From contig JAUMYP010000003.1 of NCBI GenBank assembly GCA_030528565.1, positions 63,082-121,477 on the forward strand: DNA of 58,396 bases, written 5' to 3'. This document shows, in pieces, positions 7,139-30,140 of the stretch. Numbering within the stretch: position 1 is the stretch's first letter; every line of letters begins with the position of its first letter. The translations under genes were made by a program, and so were the position numbers. The DNA is from Pseudomonadota bacterium. GTDB taxonomy: Bacteria > Pseudomonadota > Gammaproteobacteria > Xanthomonadales > Xanthomonadaceae. The notes beneath the pieces were generated by a model. The model made no database searches, had not been told where the DNA came from, and saw only the letters and a list, made by a program, of their open reading frames with translations.

Positions 7139-7648
7139 ATGGCACTGCCCCGCAAATTGAAAAACTTCAACGTCTTTGGCGATGGCGAAAGCTATCTTGG
7201 CCAGGTGGTCGAAGTTAAACTGCCCACCCTCACCCGCAGCATGGAAGACTACCGAGGCGGCGGCATGTCCGGCCCAGTCAAAATCGACAATGGCCAGGAA
7301 GCCATCGAGCTGGAGCACAAGTACGGCGGCCTGATGCGCCCCATCCTGCGCCAGTACGGCATCACCCGCCACGATAGCGTGATGCTGCGCTTTGCCGGTG
7401 CCTACCAGCGCGATGACACCGGCGGCGTGGATGCCGTCGAAATCGTCATCCGTGGCCGCCATAGCGAGATTGACGCAGGCACCGCCAAAGCCGGGGACGA
7501 TACCGAGTTCGCGGTCAAGACCGCCGTCAGCTACTACAAGCTGACCATCAACGGTGTAACGGAAATCGAGATTGACCTCATCAACATGATTGAAACCGTC
7601 GGCGGCATCGACCGCCTGGCCGAACAACGCCGCGCCATTGGCGTGTAA
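7139..7648 (+). CDS. FII: Major tail tube protein FII
   Basis: A 169-residue tube protein of the P2 FII family. The N-terminus Met-Ala-Leu-Pro-Arg-Lys-Leu-Lys-Asn-Phe-Asn-Val-Phe is almost diagnostic. The central Gly-Gly-Gly-Met-x-Gly-Pro-Val and the C-terminal Tyr-Tyr-Lys-Leu-Thr-Ile-Asn-Gly segment also fit. AAGGAG lies 6 bases before the start. The product forms the inner tail tube through which DNA passes. Confidence 0.97.
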   Translation: MALPRKLKNFNVFGDGESYLGQVVEVKLPTLTRSMEDYRGGGMSGPVKIDNGQEAIELEHKYGGLMRPILRQYGITRHDSVMLRFAGAYQRDDTGGVDAVEIVIRGRHSEIDAGTAKAGDDTEFAVKTAVSYYKLTINGVTEIEIDLINMIETVGGIDRLAEQRRAIGV

Positions 7649-10504: not shown

Positions 10505-10640
10505 CGGATACCGCACCCGTCAGTCCTGCGGTATTTTTGTGCCCGGCTTCTGCGTCGGGAGGGTGACGGATACAACACCCCGCACGGGGAAAGAAGTCCG
10601 CCCGGCTTGCTACGGGTTTTGAGCCTCCCGACACCCCCGG
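10505..10640 (+). ncRNA. Candidate structured phage RNA / leader upstream of 10689
   Basis: This gene-free stretch is full of nested pairing. The stem ATACCGCA/TGCGGTAT is followed by T5 (10508-10538), a good intrinsic terminator. Its loop contains CCGTCA (10517-10522), complementary to TGACGG at 10564-10569. A 9-bp stem GTCGGGAGG/CCTCCCGAC (10554-10562 with 10624-10632) encloses the hairpin CCCCG/CGGGG (10578-10589) and CCCG/CGGG followed by TTTT (10601-10620). The layout suggests a small regulatory RNA or attenuator. I could not identify the family with certainty. The remainder of the 300-bp gap is otherwise featureless. Confidence 0.5.
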
Positions 10641-22618: not shown

Positions 22619-23212
22619 ATGCACACCGAAAACCGCCCCGTCCCGGTCAACCTGATTCATTTCCACGGCCTGCACCTGATGGTGGTGGCGCATGAGGGGG
22701 TGGAGTATGTCCCGGCCAAACCCTTTGCCAAGCTCGCCTGTATCGACTGGAAAAGCGCCCGCAGAACGCTTTTTAACGAAGAAAACGTCGTTTTGTACGG
22801 CACCAGGGTTATTTCGACCCCCAAAATCTGGGGTGCAGGGGGTGATATCACCCCCCAGGAAGGTGTTTTCTTGCGCCTCGACCGTGCCAGGATGTTTTTA
22901 GCGCGCATCAATACATCCCGAATGCGCGCCCACGGTAATAGCCTGGGCGCCGACCAGGTGCTGGCCTTGCAAATCGAATGGGCAAAAGTCCTGCACCAGT
23001 ACGAAACCACTGGCGAAGCCCGCAAGAGCCACCGCAAGTCCGCCATCAGCGAGGTGCTGGCGCTGCAACGCGCCCGCGATGCCACCGGCAACCGGGCAGA
23101 ACGTGACGCGCTGACCTGTCTGCTGCATGCCACCATGGCCGAACTGGGCGCGCCGGTCATCGAGCCGGAAAGCCCGCAAGCCACCCTGCCGCTGCAAGGA
23201 GGTGTGGCATGA
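22619..23212 (+). CDS. Antirepressor-type protein with P22_AR_N domain
   Basis: A 197-residue protein. Residues 10-120 match the N-terminal domain of P22 antirepressor-like proteins: Val-Asn-Leu-Ile-His-Phe-His-Gly-Leu-x-Leu-Met-Val-Val, then Gly-Val-Glu-Tyr-Val-Pro-x-Lys-Pro, Ile-Asp-Trp-Lys-Ser-Ala, and Val-Phe-Leu-Arg-Leu-Asp-Arg. Such proteins bind or interfere with repressors. It ends in Gly-Gly-Val-Ala, formed by the embedded ribosome-binding site of the next gene, which it overlaps by 4 bp. Being in the early operon upstream of C4-like RNAs fits an antirepressor role. Confidence 0.85.
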   Translation: MHTENRPVPVNLIHFHGLHLMVVAHEGVEYVPAKPFAKLACIDWKSARRTLFNEENVVLYGTRVISTPKIWGAGGDITPQEGVFLRLDRARMFLARINTSRMRAHGNSLGADQVLALQIEWAKVLHQYETTGEARKSHRKSAISEVLALQRARDATGNRAERDALTCLLHATMAELGAPVIEPESPQATLPLQGGVA

Positions 23213-23778
23213 GTGCGCAACCGTTGAACGATGTCCAGGCATGGGTCAATCCGTTTGAATTTGCCCAGCACTCGGTGCGTACTGCCATCGGGCCAGATGG
23301 GCAGATATGGTTCTGTGCCCGGGATGTCTATGCCGCCCTGGGATTGGTCTGGAAAGGCGGGCAAGGGAGTCTGAAAAACACCCCTGCAGACTGGCAAGGG
23401 GTCTGCTATCTCCAGACCCCCGGCGGCTTCCAGCGCACGATTTTGCTGAACGAGGCTGCGGTTTATCAGACCGCTTTTCGCTCCAGCCGACCCGAAGCAC
23501 TGGCTTTCACCCGCTGGGTTTGTGCCGAAGTCTTGCCCGCCCTGCGCAAGCAGGGGCATTACGGACGACTGCCCACCCGCGAGCGGCTAGCGCTTTCCAA
23601 ACAATTGGTCAGCACCACGCAAGCCCTGACCAACAGCCGCGATGCGCTCGCTCGCGCCCTGCTGCTGGATGAGCTGCGCGAGCTGTGTTCCCTGCTGGGC
23701 AGGACGCTGCCAGATATCGGCTTGCTGGGGCAAGACTGGCGACAAGCCGCCCTGCCGCTGGGCGGAGGTGTGGCATGA
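23209..23778 (+). CDS. BRO-N domain protein (antirepressor family)
   Basis: A 189-residue protein with a BRO-N domain in residues 12-105: Asp-Gly-Gln-Ile-Trp-Phe-Cys-Ala-Arg-Asp-Val-Tyr-Ala-Ala-Leu-Gly, then Phe-Gln-Arg-Thr-Ile-Leu-Leu-Asn-Glu-Ala-Ala-Val-Tyr, and Phe-Thr-Arg-Trp-Val-Cys-Ala-Glu-Val-Leu-Pro-Ala-Leu-Arg-Lys-Gln-Gly. BRO-N is the DNA-binding part of many phage antirepressors. The C-terminal part is a Leu/Arg-rich helix region. It ends in Gly-Gly-Val-Ala with an embedded start codon (23775) that now leads into no rightward gene. Confidence 0.87.
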   Translation: MSAQPLNDVQAWVNPFEFAQHSVRTAIGPDGQIWFCARDVYAALGLVWKGGQGSLKNTPADWQGVCYLQTPGGFQRTILLNEAAVYQTAFRSSRPEALAFTRWVCAEVLPALRKQGHYGRLPTRERLALSKQLVSTTQALTNSRDALARALLLDELRELCSLLGRTLPDIGLLGQDWRQAALPLGGGVA

Positions 23779-23797: not shown

Positions 23798-24076
23798 TCA
23801 CGCCGCGTCCTTCAATGCCGCCGCCAGCGTTGCCTCGCTCACGCCCTGCCTGCGCAAGGCTTCAATCAGGCGCGCTTCCGGGCTGAACACATACCGCGCC
23901 TCATCACGACGCAAGCCCTCACTCACATACGCCTTGAGCAAAGCCTGGTATCCGCTCATGCCCTTGTGCGGCGCAATGGCTTTCAGCGATGCCACCACAT
24001 CCACCGGCACCCGCAGCGTGATGCTGGTCATCGGGCGGTCTTTCTTCAAACGGGCTTTCAACTGTTCAGGCATCAT
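23798..24076 (-). CDS. CopG/BrnA-type antitoxin (pair 2)
   Basis: A 92-residue protein with a ribbon-helix-helix pattern: Thr-Ser-Ile-Thr-Leu-Arg-Val-Pro-Val-Asp-Val-Val, then Gly-Met-Ser-Gly-Tyr-Gln-Ala-Leu-Leu-Lys-Ala-Tyr. A C-terminal helical tail follows. It lies directly after a brnT gene on the same strand and overlaps it by 11 bp, so it should neutralise that toxin. It is more CopG-like than the antitoxin of pair 1. The second Met (24073) is an equally good start. Confidence 0.83.
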   Translation of the reverse strand: MMPEQLKARLKKDRPMTSITLRVPVDVVASLKAIAPHKGMSGYQALLKAYVSEGLRRDEARYVFSPEARLIEALRRQGVSEATLAAALKDAA

Positions 24077-24362
24077 GGTCTTGGCGCTCCCTGGGCGTGG
24101 CTTTGCGAGCCGAAATCAAACGGATGGCATCGTCTTCCAGCACGATGTGCACCACAAACAGCAACCGGCCTTGCACGTCATAGCCAATCACCGCATCGCG
24201 GGCTTCATCGTTGCGGCTGGCATCCACCACCCGCAAAAACGGGTCAAAGAACACCTCAGCGGCCTGCTCAAACCGTATCCCATCATGCCTTTGGATATTC
24301 AAGCGGGCTTTTTCATCGTGCCAGACAAAGCGCACGCCGTTGAGTTCAAAGTGGATGTCCAT
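24066..24362 (-). CDS. brnT: BrnT-family ribonuclease toxin (pair 2)
   Basis: A 98-residue BrnT toxin: Phe-Val-Trp-His-Asp-Glu-Lys-Ala-Arg-Leu-Asn-Ile-Gln-Arg-His, then Phe-Glu-Gln-Ala-Ala-Glu-Val-Phe-Phe-Asp-Pro, Arg-Leu-Leu-Phe-Val-Val-His-Ile, and Ile-Arg-Leu-Ile-Ser-Ala-Arg-Lys-Ala-Thr-Pro-Arg-Glu-Arg. It resembles canonical BrnT more closely than the toxin of pair 1. It is antisense to the early operon and inserted between the BRO-N gene and the C4-like region. A leftward promoter probably lies in 24363-24400. Confidence 0.9.
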   Translation of the reverse strand: MDIHFELNGVRFVWHDEKARLNIQRHDGIRFEQAAEVFFDPFLRVVDASRNDEARDAVIGYDVQGRLLFVVHIVLEDDAIRLISARKATPRERQDHDA

Positions 24363-24401
24363 GGCTGCAATCCTAGTTTTTCGTATTTACATTGTCAATA
24401 C

Positions 24402-24430
24402 TTGACACCCTTCCACGCCGTGGGCATCAT
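24402..24430 (+). promoter_or_regulatory. Putative promoter of C4-like RNA, copy 1
   Basis: TTGACA (24402-24407), 17 bp, then CATCAT (24425-24430; four of six consensus positions). The same arrangement, TTGACG-N17-CATCAT, precedes copy 2 at 24755-24783. The structured RNA begins a few bases after each -10. Confidence 0.55.
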
Positions 24431-24436
24431 CAGCCC

Positions 24437-24522
24437 CGCAGCGGCAAATTCCGCTGCCGGGATTGGCGTCCCGAATACCAAAGGCGCAACAGCGCCCATC
24501 GCACCGATGCCCGGCGCTTTTT
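24437..24522 (+). ncRNA. C4-type antisense RNA, copy 1
   Basis: Three elements in a row: the stem GCAGCGG/CCGCTGC with loop CAAATT (24438-24457), the stem CGGGA/TCCCG with loop TTGGCG (24458-24473), and GGCGC/GCGCC (24483-24496). The last can refold into a terminator stem GCGCC-CATCG/CGATG-(CCC)-GGCGC followed by T5 (24492-24522). Bases 24459-24469 are complementary to ACGCCAACCC at 24611-24620 in the leader downstream. Position behind antirepressor genes and in front of a small leader gene matches C4 of P1/P7-type phages, an antisense RNA that blocks antirepressor-operon expression. Confidence 0.8.
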
Positions 24523-24610
24523 CTTTGCCCGGCATCGCCGGGCGTGCCTGCCACTTTTATGGCGGGCAGTGCGCGGGAGCCGCAAGGCTCACCGGATGCC
24601 TTTGGCCGGT

Positions 24611-24688
24611 ACGCCAACCCGCACTGTCCGCCACCTCAATTGGCGTTGGGCGCGGCGGACTCCATCAACCAAAGGAGTCCCAATCATG
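24611..24688 (+). promoter_or_regulatory. C4 target and ribosome-binding-site switch, copy 1
   Basis: The C4 target ACGCCAACCC (24611-24620) can instead pair internally with TTGGCGT (24640-24646). GTCCGCC (24626-24632) can pair with GGCGGAC (24654-24660). The latter overlaps GGACTCC (24657-24663), which can pair with GGAGTCC (24674-24680) and so hide the ribosome-binding site of ATG 24686. These foldings exclude one another, as expected for a translational switch. Confidence 0.72.
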
Positions 24689-24754
24689 AACACCAATACC
24701 CTGCCCGCCGCTGGCGGCCTGATGGGCTATTTCATCAGCGAAGACGACCACCGC

Positions 24755-24783
24755 TTGACGCCCTTCCCCGCCGTGGGCATCAT
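24755..24783 (+). promoter_or_regulatory. Putative promoter of C4-like RNA, copy 2
   Basis: TTGACG (24755-24760), 17 bp, CATCAT (24778-24783), the same spacing and -10 as copy 1 with one change in the -35. Confidence 0.5.
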
Positions 24784-24789
24784 CCGCCC

Positions 24790-24874
24790 TGCACGCGCAA
24801 ATTCGCGTGCCGGGTTTAGCAGCCCGATGCAAAAGGCGCAACAGCGCCCATCGCACCGATGCCCGGCGCTTTTT
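24790..24874 (+). ncRNA. C4-type antisense RNA, copy 2
   Basis: The stem GCACGCG/CGCGTGC with the same CAAATT loop (24791-24810) has paired changes relative to copy 1, preserving all seven pairs. The second stem CGGGT/GCCCG has loop TTAGCA (24811-24826). The terminator stem with T5 (24844-24874) is the same as in copy 1. Bases 24811-24822 are complementary at 11 of 12 positions to CTGCTAACCCCG at 24975-24986, the corresponding site of its own leader, but not to the copy 1 target core. This is covariation seen directly in the sequence. Confidence 0.8.
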
Positions 24875-24974
24875 GTTTGCCCGCCCATCGGTGGCGGCTT
24901 GTTGCGTAGCGCAACCCGTTTTATGGCGGGCGGCGCGGGGAGGGCTTGCGCCCTGCCGGTTCCTTTTGCCCGGT

Positions 24975-25053
24975 CTGCTAACCCCGCGTCGTCCGCCACC
25001 CCGTTTAGCAGCGGCGCGGCGGACTCCATCCAGCAAAAGGAGTCCCAATCATG
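24975..25053 (+). promoter_or_regulatory. C4 target and ribosome-binding-site switch, copy 2
   Basis: The target CTGCTAACCCCG (24975-24986) can pair internally with TTAGCAG (25005-25011). GTCCGCC (24991-24997) can pair with GGCGGAC (25018-25024), which overlaps GGACTCC (25021-25027), the partner of GGAGTCC (25039-25045) around the ribosome-binding site of ATG 25051. The architecture equals copy 1 although the target sequence differs. Confidence 0.72.
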
Positions 25054-25278
25054 AACACCAACACCCTGCCCGCCGCTGGCGGCCTGATGGGCTATTTCAT
25101 CAGCGAAGACGACCACCGCCAGCTGTCCCGGCTGGCGCTGCTGGCGCGCTTTCTGGCCGATACCAGCAAGGATGCGGCCATCACCGAGGCCGCCGAATGT
25201 GTGGCCAGCGCCGCAGGCGGCATTCTCGACAACGCCATCTTTGGCAGTGACTGGGTCGATATGGGGGTGCCGGCATGA
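25051..25278 (+). CDS. Small phage protein controlled by the C4-like region
   Basis: A 75-residue protein starting Met-Asn-Thr-Asn-Thr-Leu-Pro. A helical body rich in Ala/Leu follows (Leu-Ala-Leu-Leu-Ala-Arg-Phe-Leu-Ala-Asp-Thr), then an acidic end. AAAGGAG precedes it and lies inside the conserved RNA switch. By position it corresponds to the gene directly after C4 in P1-like operons (icd), but the sequence does not let me assign that role. The stop overlaps the next start (ATGA at 25275). Confidence 0.75.
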   Translation: MNTNTLPAAGGLMGYFISEDDHRQLSRLALLARFLADTSKDAAITEAAECVASAAGGILDNAIFGSDWVDMGVPA

Positions 25279-25538
25279 ACCTGCATCTCTTGCCTGCGGC
25301 CAATGATGACGGCCCCCGCCACGACCTGTTCAGCATCATCCAGCGCCTGGACAGCTTCCAGTACCTTACCCTGCGGCAGCTGGAATGGCTGGTGCCGCAA
25401 CTGGAAGGGCGCAACATTACCCAGGTTACCCTGGGCGAGCTGCTGGCGCTGATTGACCGCGCCCATACCCTGCCGCGTCTGGTGGAAAGTGGCCATGCCT
25501 GCCCACCCTGCGCCCATGGGCAAGGGGGTGTGGCATGA
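25275..25538 (+). CDS. Hypothetical phage protein, paralogue of 11505-11747
   Basis: An 87-residue protein. Residues 14-65 align without gaps to the 11505-11747 product: Arg-His-Asp-Leu-Phe-Ser-Ile, Gln-Leu-Glu-Trp-Leu-Val, Gln-Val-Thr-Leu-Gly-Glu-Leu-Leu-Ala-Leu-Ile-Asp-Arg, and His-Thr-Leu-Pro. Having copies in two separate clusters suggests a conserved phage family. The last codons carry the next gene's ribosome-binding site and encode Gly-Gly-Val-Ala. Confidence 0.7.
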   Translation: MNLHLLPAANDDGPRHDLFSIIQRLDSFQYLTLRQLEWLVPQLEGRNITQVTLGELLALIDRAHTLPRLVESGHACPPCAHGQGGVA

Positions 25539-25804
25539 GCCGGTTACGGACTGCCAAAGCCTTGCCGCCCAGGGCGGGCTGTTTCTGCGCAGCACTGGTG
25601 CGGCCTGGCAGCGCCCTGGCCTCGCGTTGCGGCAGTGATACCCCGGTATGGGGCATCTTCGAGATTGACCCGGCCTTGGGGTTGTGCGAGCTGCGCTTTG
25701 GGGATGGAAGCTGGCTGGCTATCGGGCCTGAAGACCTGGCTGATGTGATTGTCCTGCCCGAGCTGGACGATGAGGCATTGGGGGAGTTGTTCGATGCGCG
25801 CTGA
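25535..25804 (+). CDS. Hypothetical phage protein
   Basis: An 89-residue protein with a basic N-terminal third and an acidic C-terminal two thirds (Phe-Glu-Ile-Asp-Pro-Ala-Leu-Gly-Leu-Cys-Glu-Leu-Arg-Phe-Gly-Asp-Gly). Its start is coupled to the gene before, and its 3' end overlaps the primase start by 11 bp. I do not recognise the family. Confidence 0.65.
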   Translation: MSRLRTAKALPPRAGCFCAALVRPGSALASRCGSDTPVWGIFEIDPALGLCELRFGDGSWLAIGPEDLADVIVLPELDDEALGELFDAR

Positions 25805-28442
25805 CCTGCTGCGGGATGTGTTGCCAAGGTTGCTGGCTGATTATGACTTCAAGGAAAAGGGCGAGTGGTTGCAGCAAGGGCGGTGCCCAGCCTGCGGCAA
25901 GCGCGAGCTGTATGCGAAGGCGGATAGTCCGTGGCTGCTGAAGTGTGGCCGCGAGAACAAATGCGCGGCGCAGCTGCATATCAAGGACCTGTACCCGGAT
26001 TTGTTCGAGCGTTGGTCGGAGCGCTTTCCGGCCAGTGCCGAAAGCCCGACGGCGGCAGCGGATGCTTACTTGCGCGATGGCCGGGGCTTTCCGCTGGCGC
26101 GGCTGGCCGGTTGTTATACGCAGGAATATCACCATGACCGCAAGCGCGGTATCGGCAGTGCCACGGTGCGCTTTGCGCTGCCGGGGGGCGGCTGGTGGGA
26201 GCGGATTATCGACCAGCCGCAGCGCTTTGAGCGCAAGGCCAATTTTGCCTATGGCAAGAGCTACCACGGGCAGTGGTGGCAGTTGCCCGGCGGGCTGGAA
26301 GCGGGCGATGAGCTATGGCTGGCCGAGGGGATTTTTGATTGCATCGCACTGGAGCTGGCCGGGCTGCCGGCACGCAGCCTGATGAGCTGCAATAATTACC
26401 CGGACCAGGCGCTGGCGGCGCTGAAGGCGGCCTGCCAGGCCAGCGGGCAGCCACTGCCAAAGCTGGTGTGGGCGCTGGATGATGGCGCGGCCGGGACACG
26501 CTACATGAAGCAGTGGCATCAGCGGGCGCGGCAAGCGGGCTGGGAGAGTACGGCGGCCTATATCCGCGATGTGCGCGGCGCCAAGCGGGACTGGAACGAG
26601 GCCTGGCAACGCGGGCAGATGACAGAAAAGGACTTTGCCCGCTACCGCTACAACGGGGCGCTGCTGCTGGCCGAGAATGCGCAGGAAAAGGCGCTGCTGA
26701 TGTATGAGCGCCGTGGGCGCAGCAGCTTCCATTTCGGTTTTGAAGACCAGTTGTATTGGTTTGAGCTGGATCTGGACAAGTACAACAAGGCCAGGGCCAA
26801 GCTGGAAGATGATGATGACGGGCGCACGGACAAGGAGCTGCGCGAGGCGGCGCTGGTGCAGAGCGGGATGGTGCGGGAGATTGCCAATTGCCTGCCGGTG
26901 CCGCTGTATTACCAGCGCGATTCGCTCACCGATGAGAGCTGGTACTACTTCCGGGTGAGCTTTCCGCATGCCGGGCGGCCGGTGAAGAACACGTTCACCA
27001 GCAGCCAGTTGAACTCGGCCAGCGCCTTCAAGGAACGGCTGCGCAGTATCGCGCCGGGGGCGTCGTTTTCCGGCAATACCTTGCAGCTTGACCGGATGCT
27101 GGAGGAGGAAATCTTCAATATCAAGGTGGTGGACACCCTGCCCTATGTCGGCTACAGCCTGGAACACGACGCCTATGTGTTTGGCGATGTGGCGGTAAAA
27201 GAAGGCCGGGTGCACCGGCTCAATGACGAGGATTATTTCGACCTGGGCGCGCTGTCGCTGAAGACGCTCAACAAGAGCATCGGCCTGTGCATCAGCCCGG
27301 ATGCGCCAGTACGGCAGGACTGGGTGCCGCTGTTATGGCAGTGCTATGGCCCCAAGGGGCTGGTGACGCTGGCGTTCTGGGCGGGAAGCCTCCTGGCCGA
27401 GCAAATCCGCGCCTGGCACAAGCAGTTTCCGTTCCTGGAAATGAGCGGCGAAGGCGGCACCGGCAAGTCCACGTTGATTGATTTTCTATGGAAGCTGGTC
27501 GGGCGCACCGGGCATGAGGGAATTGACCCGAGCAAGTCGTCACTGGCCGGACGGATGCGGCATATGACGCAGGTGTCCAATTTGCCGGTGGTGCTGATTG
27601 AGTCCGACCGTGGCGAGGAAGGCCATGCCAGGCGGTTTGATTTCGAGGAGCTCAAACCGCTGTTCAATGGGCGCATCGGGCGCTCAATCGGCGTGAAGAA
27701 TGCCGGCAACGATACCCACGACCCGCCGTTTCGCGGCACGCTGGTCATCGAGCAAAACGCGCCGGTGGAGGGCAAGCCGCAAGTACTGACCCGCATCGTG
27801 CAGATGACCTTCGACAAGTCGCGGCATTCACCGGAAAACAAGCGCGCTGCCGATGTGCTGACACAGATTCCGGTGGAGTCAGTATCAGGCTTTGCGCTGA
27901 CCATCGCCAGGCAGGCCGATGCACTGGTGGCACAGGTGAAGGAGCGGTTCCACGGGCATATGCAGGCACTCCTGGCCAGGCCGGACGTGCGCGAGGTGCG
28001 GATTGCCGAAACCCACGGCTTGCTGATGACGCTGCTGGATGTACTGGCACCAACGCTGGGGCTCAATACGGCACAGGTGACCGAAACGCTGGCTCTGCTG
28101 GGCGAGCTGGCCGCGCAGCGGCAGGCCGCCATCAATGCCGATCACCCTTATGTGGTGGAGTTCTGGGAGCGCTTTGATTACCTCGATGGCAAGCCGCTGG
28201 CCAATGGCGACCGCATCGATCTTGACCATAGCCGGGATAGCGGGCTGATTGCCGTCAATCTGGTGGAGTTCGAGAGCTGTTTGAGCCGCAACGGCCTGCA
28301 TCTGCCCTGCCCGACCACCGAGCTGAAACGACTGCTGCGCACCAGCAAACGGCGGCGCTTTATCGAGGCCAGCCGTTCGGTTAACTCCATCACCGGCAAC
28401 GGCACCCGGCGCTGCTGGATCTTCCAGCGGGAGGGCGCATGA
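25794..28442 (+). CDS. Primase-helicase (P4 alpha-like: zinc finger, TOPRIM, P-loop ATPase)
   Basis: An 882-residue replication protein. A zinc-binding site is formed by Cys31, Cys34, Cys51 and Cys57. The TOPRIM primase core has Glu178 (Leu-Ala-Glu-Gly-Ile-Phe-Asp) and Asp229-Asp230. The helicase part has a Walker A motif Gly-Glu-Gly-Gly-Thr-Gly-Lys-Ser-Thr (552-560), a Val-Val-Leu-Ile-Glu-Ser Walker B-like strand, and an Arg-rich C-terminus. It would prime and unwind phage DNA during replication. P2 itself uses a rolling-circle protein, so this module is P4-like. ATG 25794 is chosen; earlier starts overlap the previous gene more. Confidence 0.92.
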   Translation: MRADLLRDVLPRLLADYDFKEKGEWLQQGRCPACGKRELYAKADSPWLLKCGRENKCAAQLHIKDLYPDLFERWSERFPASAESPTAAADAYLRDGRGFPLARLAGCYTQEYHHDRKRGIGSATVRFALPGGGWWERIIDQPQRFERKANFAYGKSYHGQWWQLPGGLEAGDELWLAEGIFDCIALELAGLPARSLMSCNNYPDQALAALKAACQASGQPLPKLVWALDDGAAGTRYMKQWHQRARQAGWESTAAYIRDVRGAKRDWNEAWQRGQMTEKDFARYRYNGALLLAENAQEKALLMYERRGRSSFHFGFEDQLYWFELDLDKYNKARAKLEDDDDGRTDKELREAALVQSGMVREIANCLPVPLYYQRDSLTDESWYYFRVSFPHAGRPVKNTFTSSQLNSASAFKERLRSIAPGASFSGNTLQLDRMLEEEIFNIKVVDTLPYVGYSLEHDAYVFGDVAVKEGRVHRLNDEDYFDLGALSLKTLNKSIGLCISPDAPVRQDWVPLLWQCYGPKGLVTLAFWAGSLLAEQIRAWHKQFPFLEMSGEGGTGKSTLIDFLWKLVGRTGHEGIDPSKSSLAGRMRHMTQVSNLPVVLIESDRGEEGHARRFDFEELKPLFNGRIGRSIGVKNAGNDTHDPPFRGTLVIEQNAPVEGKPQVLTRIVQMTFDKSRHSPENKRAADVLTQIPVESVSGFALTIARQADALVAQVKERFHGHMQALLARPDVREVRIAETHGLLMTLLDVLAPTLGLNTAQVTETLALLGELAAQRQAAINADHPYVVEFWERFDYLDGKPLANGDRIDLDHSRDSGLIAVNLVEFESCLSRNGLHLPCPTTELKRLLRTSKRRRFIEASRSVNSITGNGTRRCWIFQREGA

Positions 28443-28594
28443 ATCCGAATTCACCGGAGTTTTATCAGCTACTGGAAGTGCTGGCCGAAATCGAGGTGCG
28501 GAATTATCTGTACCCACAGGCCAGCAATGACGGGGGTTCTGGCGGTTGTGAACCAAATCACCCCGATTCCCAAGCCACCGGGGAGGCGGCATAG
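28439..28594 (+). CDS. Tiny hypothetical protein between primase and integrase
   Basis: A 51-residue reading frame whose ATG overlaps the primase stop (ATGA). It begins Met-Asn-Pro-Asn-Ser-Pro-Glu-Phe-Tyr-Gln-Leu-Leu-Glu-Val-Leu, an amphipathic helix, and ends in a polar Gly/Ser/Pro/Asp tail. GGAGGG precedes it in the primase gene. It is short, but coupling and codon use support translation. It ends 7 bp before the integrase start. Confidence 0.6.
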   Translation: MNPNSPEFYQLLEVLAEIEVRNYLYPQASNDGGSGGCEPNHPDSQATGEAA

Positions 28595-28601
28595 TCGCCC
28601 G

Positions 28602-30107
28602 ATGAGAACCGCCGCCTACGCCCGTTACAGCTCTGATATGCAGAGCGCCGCGTCGCTTGATGACCAGCTGCGCAACTGCCGCACCTATTGCGCCCGCATG
28701 GGCTGGCGCGAGCCGGTGGAATACTGCGATGCCGCCATATCCGGCGCCCGTAATGACCGCCCCGGTTATATGCGCCTGCTGGCAGATGCCAAGCAGTTTG
28801 ACGTGATTTTGGTGGACGACCTCTCGCGGCTTTCACGCGATAGCCTGGAAATGAACCGGGTGCTGCGGGCACTGGAATTTGAACGTATCCGCGTCATTGG
28901 CGTGAGCGATGGCGTGGACACCAGCCGCAAAGGCCATCAGGCCGAAGTCGGGCTGCGCGGCATCATGTCCGAGCTGTACCTGGCTGACCTGGCCGACAAG
29001 ACCCGGCGCGGCCTGACCGGCAAGGCACTGGCCGGAAAATCCGCCGGCGGCCTGCCCTATGGCTACCGCATCACACGCACCGGCGAGCGTGAAATCGACC
29101 CGGCGCAGGCCGCCGTGGTGCGCCGCATCTTTGCCGACTACATTGCCGGGCAATCCGCCCGGCAGATTGCCCATGCACTGAACCGTGAAGGCATCCCGTC
29201 AGGGCGCGGCAAGTCCTGGGCGGTTTCGGCCATCCAGCCCGACCACAAGCGCGGCATCGGCATACTGGCAAACCCCATCTACAAGGGGCTGCAAATCTGG
29301 AACCGCTCCACCTGGGTGAAAAACCCGGAAACCCGCCTGCGCGTGCGCCGGGACAACCCGGAAAGCGAGTGGATTACCTCCGAACACCCGGAGCTGGCCA
29401 TCGTCACTCCGGAGATATGGGCGGCTGCCCGTGCCGCCTGCCAGCGGCGCAGCGTCAAGTCTGGCGGACTCGGCAAGCGCCCCGTGAACCTGCTATCCGG
29501 GCTACTGCGCTGCAAAGAATGCAGCGGCCCTATCGTCGTTGTCGATGCCACCTACTACGGCTGTGCCACGGCCAAAGACCGTGGCACCTGTGGCAACACG
29601 CTCAAGGTCAACCGCAAGCAGGCAGAAGCGGCCATGCTTGCCCACGTGCGCGAGCTTTTGCTGTCGGACGAATCAATGGCTGCCTGGCAGGCGGCCATTG
29701 CCCGGCAATTGCGCCTGCAACAAGGCCAGTCCCAAGAAGCCAAGCGCCGCCTGCAGGCCACGCTGAAGGAGCGCGACAACATCCTCGCCGCCCTCCGGGC
29801 AGGCATCATCACCCATAGCACCAAGGCGGAACTCGAACGCATCGAGGCACTGTGTGAATCTCTGGAGCAGCAGGCCAATGCCCCACTGCGGGTGATAACC
29901 GACATCCGCCCGCGCCTGCAAGCCCTGGCCGACAACCTTGCCAGTGTCTCCAGCCGCCACCCCAAAGCCCGTGAAGCATTGCGCGCTGCCATCGGCTCGG
30001 CGGTGCTGACAAACAAAAACGGCGTGACCGGAGCATTGGTCACGCCATCAATACTTCTAGAAGTGGTAGCGGGGGCAGGATTTGAACCTGCGACCTTCGG
30101 GTTATGA
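28602..30107 (+). CDS. Large serine recombinase (prophage integrase)
   Basis: A 501-residue large serine integrase. The N-terminal catalytic domain has Tyr-Ala-Arg-Tyr-Ser10 (catalytic serine), Asp-Asp-Gln-Leu-Arg, and Asp-Asp-Leu-Ser-Arg-Leu-Ser-Arg-Asp. The recombinase domain contains Gly-Gly-Leu-Pro-Tyr-Gly-Tyr. A zinc ribbon (Cys304, Cys307, Cys321, Cys330) and a long coiled coil (about 345-440) follow. The gene runs into the tRNA-fMet gene, where the last ~14 codons are antisense tRNA sequence (Phe-Glu-Pro-Ala-Thr-Phe) and the stop overlaps the anticodon. Starts upstream of 28602 are less likely. Confidence 0.92.
   Translation: MRTAAYARYSSDMQSAASLDDQLRNCRTYCARMGWREPVEYCDAAISGARNDRPGYMRLLADAKQFDVILVDDLSRLSRDSLEMNRVLRALEFERIRVIGVSDGVDTSRKGHQAEVGLRGIMSELYLADLADKTRRGLTGKALAGKSAGGLPYGYRITRTGEREIDPAQAAVVRRIFADYIAGQSARQIAHALNREGIPSGRGKSWAVSAIQPDHKRGIGILANPIYKGLQIWNRSTWVKNPETRLRVRRDNPESEWITSEHPELAIVTPEIWAAARAACQRRSVKSGGLGKRPVNLLSGLLRCKECSGPIVVVDATYYGCATAKDRGTCGNTLKVNRKQAEAAMLAHVRELLLSDESMAAWQAAIARQLRLQQGQSQEAKRRLQATLKERDNILAALRAGIITHSTKAELERIEALCESLEQQANAPLRVITDIRPRLQALADNLASVSSRHPKAREALRAAIGSAVLTNKNGVTGALVTPSILLEVVAGAGFEPATFGL
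30011..30046 (-). terminator. Intrinsic terminator for leftward tRNA/nuo transcripts, inside the integrase gene
   Basis: On the minus strand a 9-bp perfect stem GGCGTGACC/GGTCACGCC with an 8-base loop is followed by GTTTTTGTTTG. It lies 18 bases beyond the CCA end of tRNA-fMet and would stop transcription from the tRNA and nuo operon before it enters the prophage. On the plus strand the same DNA codes for integrase residues. Confidence 0.82.
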
Positions 30108-30140
30108 GCCCGACGAGCTGCCAGACTGCTCCACCCCGCA
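30064..30140 (-). tRNA. tRNA-fMet (CAT), initiator; prophage attachment site
   Basis: A 77-nt gene with encoded CCA. The anticodon CAT is at 30104-30106. The three G-C pairs in the anticodon stem (TCGGG...CCCGA) and the D-stem GAGC/GCTC mark an initiator tRNA. Position 1 is T and position 72 is T, so the top of the acceptor stem is unpaired, as required of initiators, but with an unusual mismatch. The prophage integrase gene overlaps its 3' half. In relatives the order is nuoN-tRNA-fMet-rimP, so rimP should lie beyond the prophage. Confidence 0.93.

Follow-up and report, generated by a model that had tools for sequence, protein, structure and literature searches.

Two stacked, predicted C4/P4-type immunity cassettes with different recognition words ahead of a prophage replication operon

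We think it fairly likely that a prophage in the 58,396-nucleotide stretch of Xanthomonadaceae DNA analysed here (hereafter, the window) carries two complete, stacked C4/P4-type immunity cassettes before its replication operon, of which the second would be the switch of the prophage and the first an add-on, the two having been joined recently. This reading is built on the anatomy of the units, the matching of their recognition words, the separate nearest relatives of the two cassettes and the presence of a second stack in another species, all of which can be read from the sequences.

Anatomy of the units and their prophage setting

The prophage, part of which falls within the window, has genes for a contractile tail (tail sheath, tape measure and tail fibre), and the two units, of about 364 bases each, are arranged head to tail 5' of its primase gene. 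As judged from sequence, each unit consists of a promoter-like site, a leader target, a C4 RNA, a second target and a start codon, in that order and on the forward strand. The promoter-like sites are located at 24402..24430 (TTGACA-17-CATCAT; 10 of 12 consensus positions) and 24755..24783 (TTGACG-17-CATCAT; 9 of 12), and there are three sites of this kind in 961 bases, both strands included, compared with a mean of 0.3 after shuffling. An initial sequence-only reading of this DNA had proposed two tandem C4-type units with promoters, and the units and their promoter-like sites are borne out; its naming of the RNAs is not, as C4 and leader were interchanged. The RNA called C4-like is an IsrK/SeqA-type leader, i.e., the target (24438..24524; RF01394, 57.8 bits with a cut-off of 50, together with folding), while the element called a leader is the true C4 RNA (24555..24638 in unit 1 and 24919..25003 in unit 2). 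That reading had also suggested scanning with the Rfam C4 covariance model (RF01695), which matches both copies above its gathering score of 45, at 67.9 bits for unit 1 and 78.1 bits for unit 2; in both, a' and b' are complementary to upstream and downstream targets.

The unit 1 leader has its word loop at 24462-24469, a second word at 24478-24484, an antiterminator-like hairpin at 24483-24496 and a terminator-like stem with a T run at 24492-24522. The unit 2 leader (24791..24874), identified by alignment to the unit 1 leader, has no Rfam match of its own above the cut-off, RF01394 being reached by the unit 1 leader alone. It has a stem-loop (24791-24810), the word TTAGCAG (24816-24822), a second word GCAAAAGG (24829-24836), an antiterminator-like hairpin (24835-24848) and a terminator-like stem with a T run (24844-24874). 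The b' loop and a' word of C4-1 are CCTTTGG (24599-24605) and ACGCCAACC (24611-24619), and those of C4-2 are CCTTTTGC (24962-24969) and CTGCTAACC (24975-24983), the a' words reading ACGCC(AACC) and CTGCT(AACC), respectively. Each a' word has its complement twice within its own unit, in the leader loop and directly after the C4, and each b' loop matches its own leader just 5' of GGCGC and also the ribosome-binding site likely to serve the next frame. The downstream targets (24640..24677 and 25005..25042) hold the two sites that follow the C4 RNAs: a third complementary site, TTGGCGT at 24640-24646 and TTAGCAG at 25005-25011, which the sequence-only reading had missed along with the second recognition word, and then CCAAAGGAG (24669-24677) and GCAAAAGGAG (25033-25042), each across the likely ribosome-binding site. 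The stems GCAGCGG/CCGCTGC and GCACGCG/CGCGTGC are present as that reading had described them, as are the differing loops, ATTGGCGT and TTTAGCAG, and their matching complements, ACGCCAACC and CTGCTAACC. The arrangement follows the P4-type order of SeqA-like leader, CI/C4 RNA, SeqC and replication gene.

A gene-start repeat (24675..24757) is identical at 80 of 83 bases to 25040-25122. From the duplicated start codon, a frame is open for 122 codons (24686..25054), with a TGA stop at 25052-25054 that overlaps the start codon at 25051; it comprises the first 23 codons of a 75-amino-acid gene and then continues through unit 2. The notion that both units control the same gene fails on this point, as copy 1 keeps just those 23 codons. 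The complete 75-amino-acid gene (25051..25278, forward strand) is the first of the presumed operon. It matched no Pfam or PHROG family, and no relative was found in viral contigs, where close relatives only were sought, or in 89 other genomes; hence, the donor phages could not be traced through it. Two small genes of 87 and 89 amino acids follow (25275..25804, forward strand), also of no Pfam or PHROG family, the former being akin to the gene 3' of the second unit of a prophage of Pseudoxanthomonas taiwanensis (L060; 41% over 51 amino acids). A DNA primase-type replication protein is encoded next (25749..28442, forward strand; phrog_1139, 1037.5 bits), the listed TTG start of which is mechanical, so that the true start may be further on. 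The serine integrase of the prophage (28527..30107, forward strand) adjoins a tRNA gene (30067-30140, reverse strand). Unlike P1 and P7, there is no antirepressor operon directly 3' of unit 2, where three small proteins without a family are followed by the primase. In a cassette locus of another species of the genus (L056), the cassette precedes a gene whose product resembles, by eye, a P22_AR_N antirepressor.

The primase was considered as a marker for the cassette and rejected: in the DNA examined around related primases, a C4 was present in only 3 of 80 viral and 6 of 54 genome loci, and the cassette therefore does not travel with the primase. Elsewhere in the window, two consecutive antirepressor-like genes (P22_AR_N and Bro-N; 22619-23778, forward strand) lie upstream of the immunity units, and the first of them resembles, by eye, a 241-amino-acid frame located between the two units of a Silanimonas locus (L144). 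Between these genes and unit 1, on the reverse strand, are a BrnT-like toxin gene (82.9 bits) and, directly upstream of it, a CopG-antitoxin-like partner (21.6 bits, under the Pfam cut-off of 28), at 23798-24362; this pair has a promoter-like site at 24398-24370, diverging from that of unit 1. A match to the Rfam sRNA-Xcc1 family (61.5 bits, cut-off 53) occurs between the tail genes at 10554-10640 on the forward strand.

Recognition words and pairing specificity

The matching of words seen in the window extends to a survey of 140 distinct C4 units, the two in the window included, which were deduplicated by sequence, so that related phages are counted more than once. An a' word was readable in 133 units, with 7 left out of the a' statistics; 2 of the 140 were left out of the b' statistics. 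The complement of a unit's own a' word was found in 126 of 129 leaders (mean of 17.1 and maximum of 30 in 1000 shuffles of words among units) and in 114 of 133 downstream targets (mean 14.6, maximum 25, 1000 shuffles). Words from other units fitted in 69 of 3096 leader trials and 69 of 3192 downstream-target trials. Continuous Watson-Crick pairing of b' over 7 or more bases was present in 96 of 134 leaders (0.716) and 102 of 137 downstream targets (0.745), as against shuffled means of 4% and 6%, respectively, over 60 shuffles. The 133 parsed units have 25 different a' words, ACGCC occurring 25 times and CTGCT 19 times. A census of promoters, performed without a control, found a -35/-10-like pair upstream of 92 of 134 units. 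The genome from which the window comes has a third C4 unit (G000:C48:29436-29519; L002, L055), with the word CTGTC, different from both window words, and a different b' loop.

A natural pair of loci illustrates how such words differ. L056 and L057 belong to two further species of the genus represented by the window. Over 253 alignment columns 3' of the first leader stem, they show 15 mismatches and 3 gaps, and 6 of these mismatches represent one two-base swap repeated at all three word sites (TTTGACAG, CTGTC and TTTGACAG versus TTTAGCAG, CTGCT and TTTAGCAG). The survey leads us to read C4/CI-type immunity as a two-word code written at three sites, such that immunity groups might be predictable from sequence, and the L056/L057 pair makes this code directly testable.

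Energy calculations for the window favour cognate pairs, with one weak pair. For the core duplex, C4-1 is predicted to bind leader 1 at -33.9 kcal/mol versus -21.7 kcal/mol for leader 2, and C4-2 to bind leader 2 at -32.9 kcal/mol versus -19.8 kcal/mol for leader 1, a preference of 12 to 13 kcal/mol for the own leader. At the downstream targets, the own and crossed energies are -24.1 versus -16.9 kcal/mol for C4-1 and -24.3 versus -21.4 kcal/mol for C4-2. When opening costs and short windows were included, the leaders gave -7.0 (own) versus -3.0 (crossed) for C4-1 and -5.3 versus -1.3 for C4-2. Downstream, again with opening costs, C4-1 scored -5.9 with its own target and had no crossed interaction, while C4-2 scored -5.2 with its own target versus -5.0 with target 1, the crossed score arising through an unrelated site. 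The second C4 of L060, scored with opening costs, paired better with leader 2 of the window (-6.4) than with its own leader (-5.0). Nested co-folding of the full-length RNAs, a method that cannot model loop-loop contacts, predicted almost no binding, or none, in nearly every pair, whether cognate or crossed; loop-level models alone favour the cognates, with exceptions among the pairs. The proposal that the two units are orthogonal is, in these models, supported at both leaders of the window and weak for C4-2 at downstream target 1.

Proposed mechanism and origin of the stack

In both leaders, the sequences GGCGC-AACA-GCGCC and GCGCC...GGCGC-TTTTT have one arm in common, which by folding would allow a choice between antiterminator and terminator. 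The predicted probability of the terminator stem increases from 0.36 in the free unit 2 leader to 1.0 when the C4-bound core is masked, and from 0.76 to 0.999 in the unit 1 leader, which thus prefers the terminator even when free; the free-state result varies with the ends of the segment folded. A simple terminator scan flagged neither leader terminator, and one of the two L060 leaders formed no terminator when masked. An arm shared between terminator and antiterminator, by a strict 5-base rule, was observed in 76 of 136 leaders; hence, this feature is not universal.

We infer that each cassette is transcribed from its own promoter into an RNA that includes the leader, that the C4 is cut from this same transcript and that a target remains at the next start codon. 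The C4 would pair through a' and b' with its own leader, favouring the intrinsic terminator there, and would also pair with its own downstream target, covering the ribosome-binding site; the operon would thereby be kept off in the lysogen. Unit 2 would be the switch of this prophage, because it lies next to the genes and has a promoter-like site to itself; unit 1 would then not be needed for silencing. Unit 1 differs in its word pair and retains only a gene stub; it would be an add-on supplying a second C4, C4-1, which would most likely silence incoming phages that have ACGCC-word cassettes. The stack itself would reflect a recent joining of two cassette lineages.

Evidence for this joining comes from the relatives of each cassette. 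The two units are 76% identical over 287 bases (175 bits), while the nearest relative of unit 1 is L421 (85% over 228 bases, 242 bits) and those of unit 2 are from its own genus, namely L005 (87% over 273, 331 bits) and L011 (88% over 221). The cassettes are thus closer to outside relatives than to each other, yet the 83-base gene start is nearly identical, which argues that the joining was recent. As far as sequence comparison can tell, the stack probably stems from the joining of two lineages, for which unequal recombination between phages sharing the 75-amino-acid gene is the simplest route; a search with this gene in viral contigs and 89 other genomes found no donor phage. A second stack is present in Pseudoxanthomonas taiwanensis DSM 22914 (Lysobacteraceae), in the related prophage L060, whose adjoining tRNA stretch is 94% identical to that of the window. 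Its two units are 875 bases apart and have the words CTGCC and ACGCC, and the first unit is followed by a stub of the gene that lies next to the stack. This next gene is related to the second gene of the window and not to the 75-amino-acid gene, and as the next genes differ, the two stacks look independent.

Other close pairs were found in the search for further single or tandem units that the sequence-only reading had advised. Apart from the L006 pair of G099, two units with the same word occur in Silanimonas sp. (L144). In L320 (11024-11464) and L325 (9762-10203), the tandem C4 RNAs share one word and the upstream copy is an orphan C4 for which no target was found. Viral contigs contained 49 loci that fitted a tandem pattern, and 2 of them, in similar phages, had a real tandem C4, with the same word twice. 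Two C4 RNAs on the same strand within 4 kb were seen in 6 of 106 C4 loci identified by the covariance model, with L168 not counted beside L060 (the window, L059, L060, L144, L320 and L325), a figure that is not a rate, as L059, L060, L320 and L325 were fetched because a pair had been seen or sought. C4 RNAs are present in at least 73 of 398 genomes of the order, and some genomes have at least 10 matches (among L371-L490). Among 395 genomes of the family, a spacing pattern matched the window and one further locus (L367), which has no C4; read backwards as a control, it matched more genomes than the pattern itself, so that the pattern alone proves nothing. Tight stacks are rare, one having been verified among the 395 family genomes, and more may lie beyond the C4 matches listed for the order; such rarity would suit a transient intermediate no less than a device under selection.

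Explanations other than joining and add-on immunity differ in how well they account for these observations. The sequence-only reading had the units arise when one unit was duplicated locally in tandem, after which each RNA and its target would have diverged together on the spot, with the stems as an example of compensatory change. We consider this very improbable for the window, where both cassettes have closer relatives in other genomes than in each other and the stem GCACGCG of unit 2 is shared with L056, from another species of the genus. The head-to-tail layout would be expected from such a duplication, and the G099 pair, 2.8 kb apart, does look like one, with near-identical flanks and with differences that cluster at or near the words; however, unit L006 of that pair has no exact a' word match in either target. 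A better case can be made for the stack as a passing by-product of unequal recombination between related phages, in which the unit 1 RNA brings no advantage and will be lost. This has an appreciable chance of being right, although we rather doubt it: the rarity of stacks and the near-identity of the gene-start repeats (80 of 83 bases in the window and 79 of 86 in L060), which points to a recent origin of both stacks, would agree with it, but the unit 1 elements that were tested are intact (promoter-like site, both words, C4 fold and both targets) and stacks or close pairs occur in several lineages (L060, L059, L144 and L320/L325).

The 122-codon frame raises the main rival as regards function, that the stack is a serial gate. 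Translation from the duplicated start through unit 2 would block its terminator and C4-2 and hand over at the stop-start overlap, so that relief of either C4 turns the operon on, giving two sensors and one output. Besides the overlap at 25051, the counterpart frame in L060 (292 codons) runs to 7299 and overlaps a start at 7292, identical bases directly precede both start codons in the window, and each of the two units of G099 is followed by a short leader frame (27 and 28 codons). Nevertheless, shuffling the bases left the window frame open in 679 of 5000 cases, so that its openness may be chance; for L060 the count was 21 of 5000, but an opposite-strand open frame of 161 amino acids can keep the frame open there. 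The stacks also differ in reading-frame offset, with 365 versus 871 bases between start codons, and we regard the serial gate as unlikely.

Returning to the stack of switch and add-on, the words suggest that dual immunity, with one prophage blocking two kinds of competing phage, is plausible. Natural co-occurrence was assessed in 86 units from 30 genomes, drawn from 120 fetched (among the matches listed) plus 5 added by hand, after dropping units with an unreadable word or loop, or with a word that had no leader match or seemed misread, and genomes left with one unit. Among the matches listed, 22 of 125 within-genome pairs shared an a' word compared with 12.8 expected by shuffling, that is, more and not less. 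All of these 22 pairs, again among the matches listed, differ in the b' loop, though few matches would be expected, and no pair shared both words where 0.45 was expected, a comparison with little power. As genomes do not avoid a shared a' word, natural co-occurrence gives no proof of immunity groups. If dual immunity is correct, stacked cassettes with different words would make one prophage immune to two groups by RNA alone. Our wider proposal, which we offer tentatively and with belief somewhat short of even, is that prophages may capture a second cassette, complete and of a different word pair, which works as a plug-in immunity module: the prophage's own switch would use one code, and the captured C4 would act in trans against phages using another. 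With a code made of just two short words, each written at three sites, very small changes made in concert would be enough to shift an immunity group, and stacks would be a record of past competition between phages.

Relation to known immunity systems

RNA immunity of the C4/CI type has been elucidated in a small number of phages. In P1 and P7, the icd and ant genes follow C4; in the window, small genes without a family and a primase follow instead. The C4 of these phages (RF01695) has the same fold, a' and b' words and targets as those described here, with b' across the ribosome-binding site, whereas here there are two complete tandem cassettes with different words. PMC5320573 describes P1 and P7 as separated by 4 bases in a' and its targets, with a' giving specificity and b' covering ribosome-binding sites, repression of Ant synthesis by c4 RNA is mentioned in PMC8546580, and a separate motif, 'c4-a1b1', appears in a table of PMC2864571.

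The immunity region of satellite P4 has SeqA, a CI RNA with SeqB, and SeqC, and shares with the window a leader target, an antisense RNA and a downstream target. It differs in that the cassettes here are in tandem and the element has its own tail genes, which is why we take the element to be a prophage rather than a P4-like satellite. PMC4825925 states that the P4 CI RNA terminates transcription through SeqA and SeqC, keeping the replication genes off, and describes IsrK as a structural homologue of P4 SeqA, with an RNA, STnc1160, processed downstream. IsrK of Salmonella Gifsy-1 (RF01394) has the same leader fold with a terminator, but the window has two such leaders, which differ in their loop words.

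C4 cassettes, their words and heteroimmunity are already known. A literature search, which had most subscription journals outside its reach, found no description of complete cassettes that are stacked and differ in their words, and it is this stacking that looks new. A further parallel is with the Group 1 C4-like sRNAs of Acinetobacter baumannii, for which protection against superinfection is proposed, in PMC5320573, as one of two roles. There, too, a genome has many C4-like RNAs with varied a' loops; here, complete cassettes with both targets lie back to back in one prophage.
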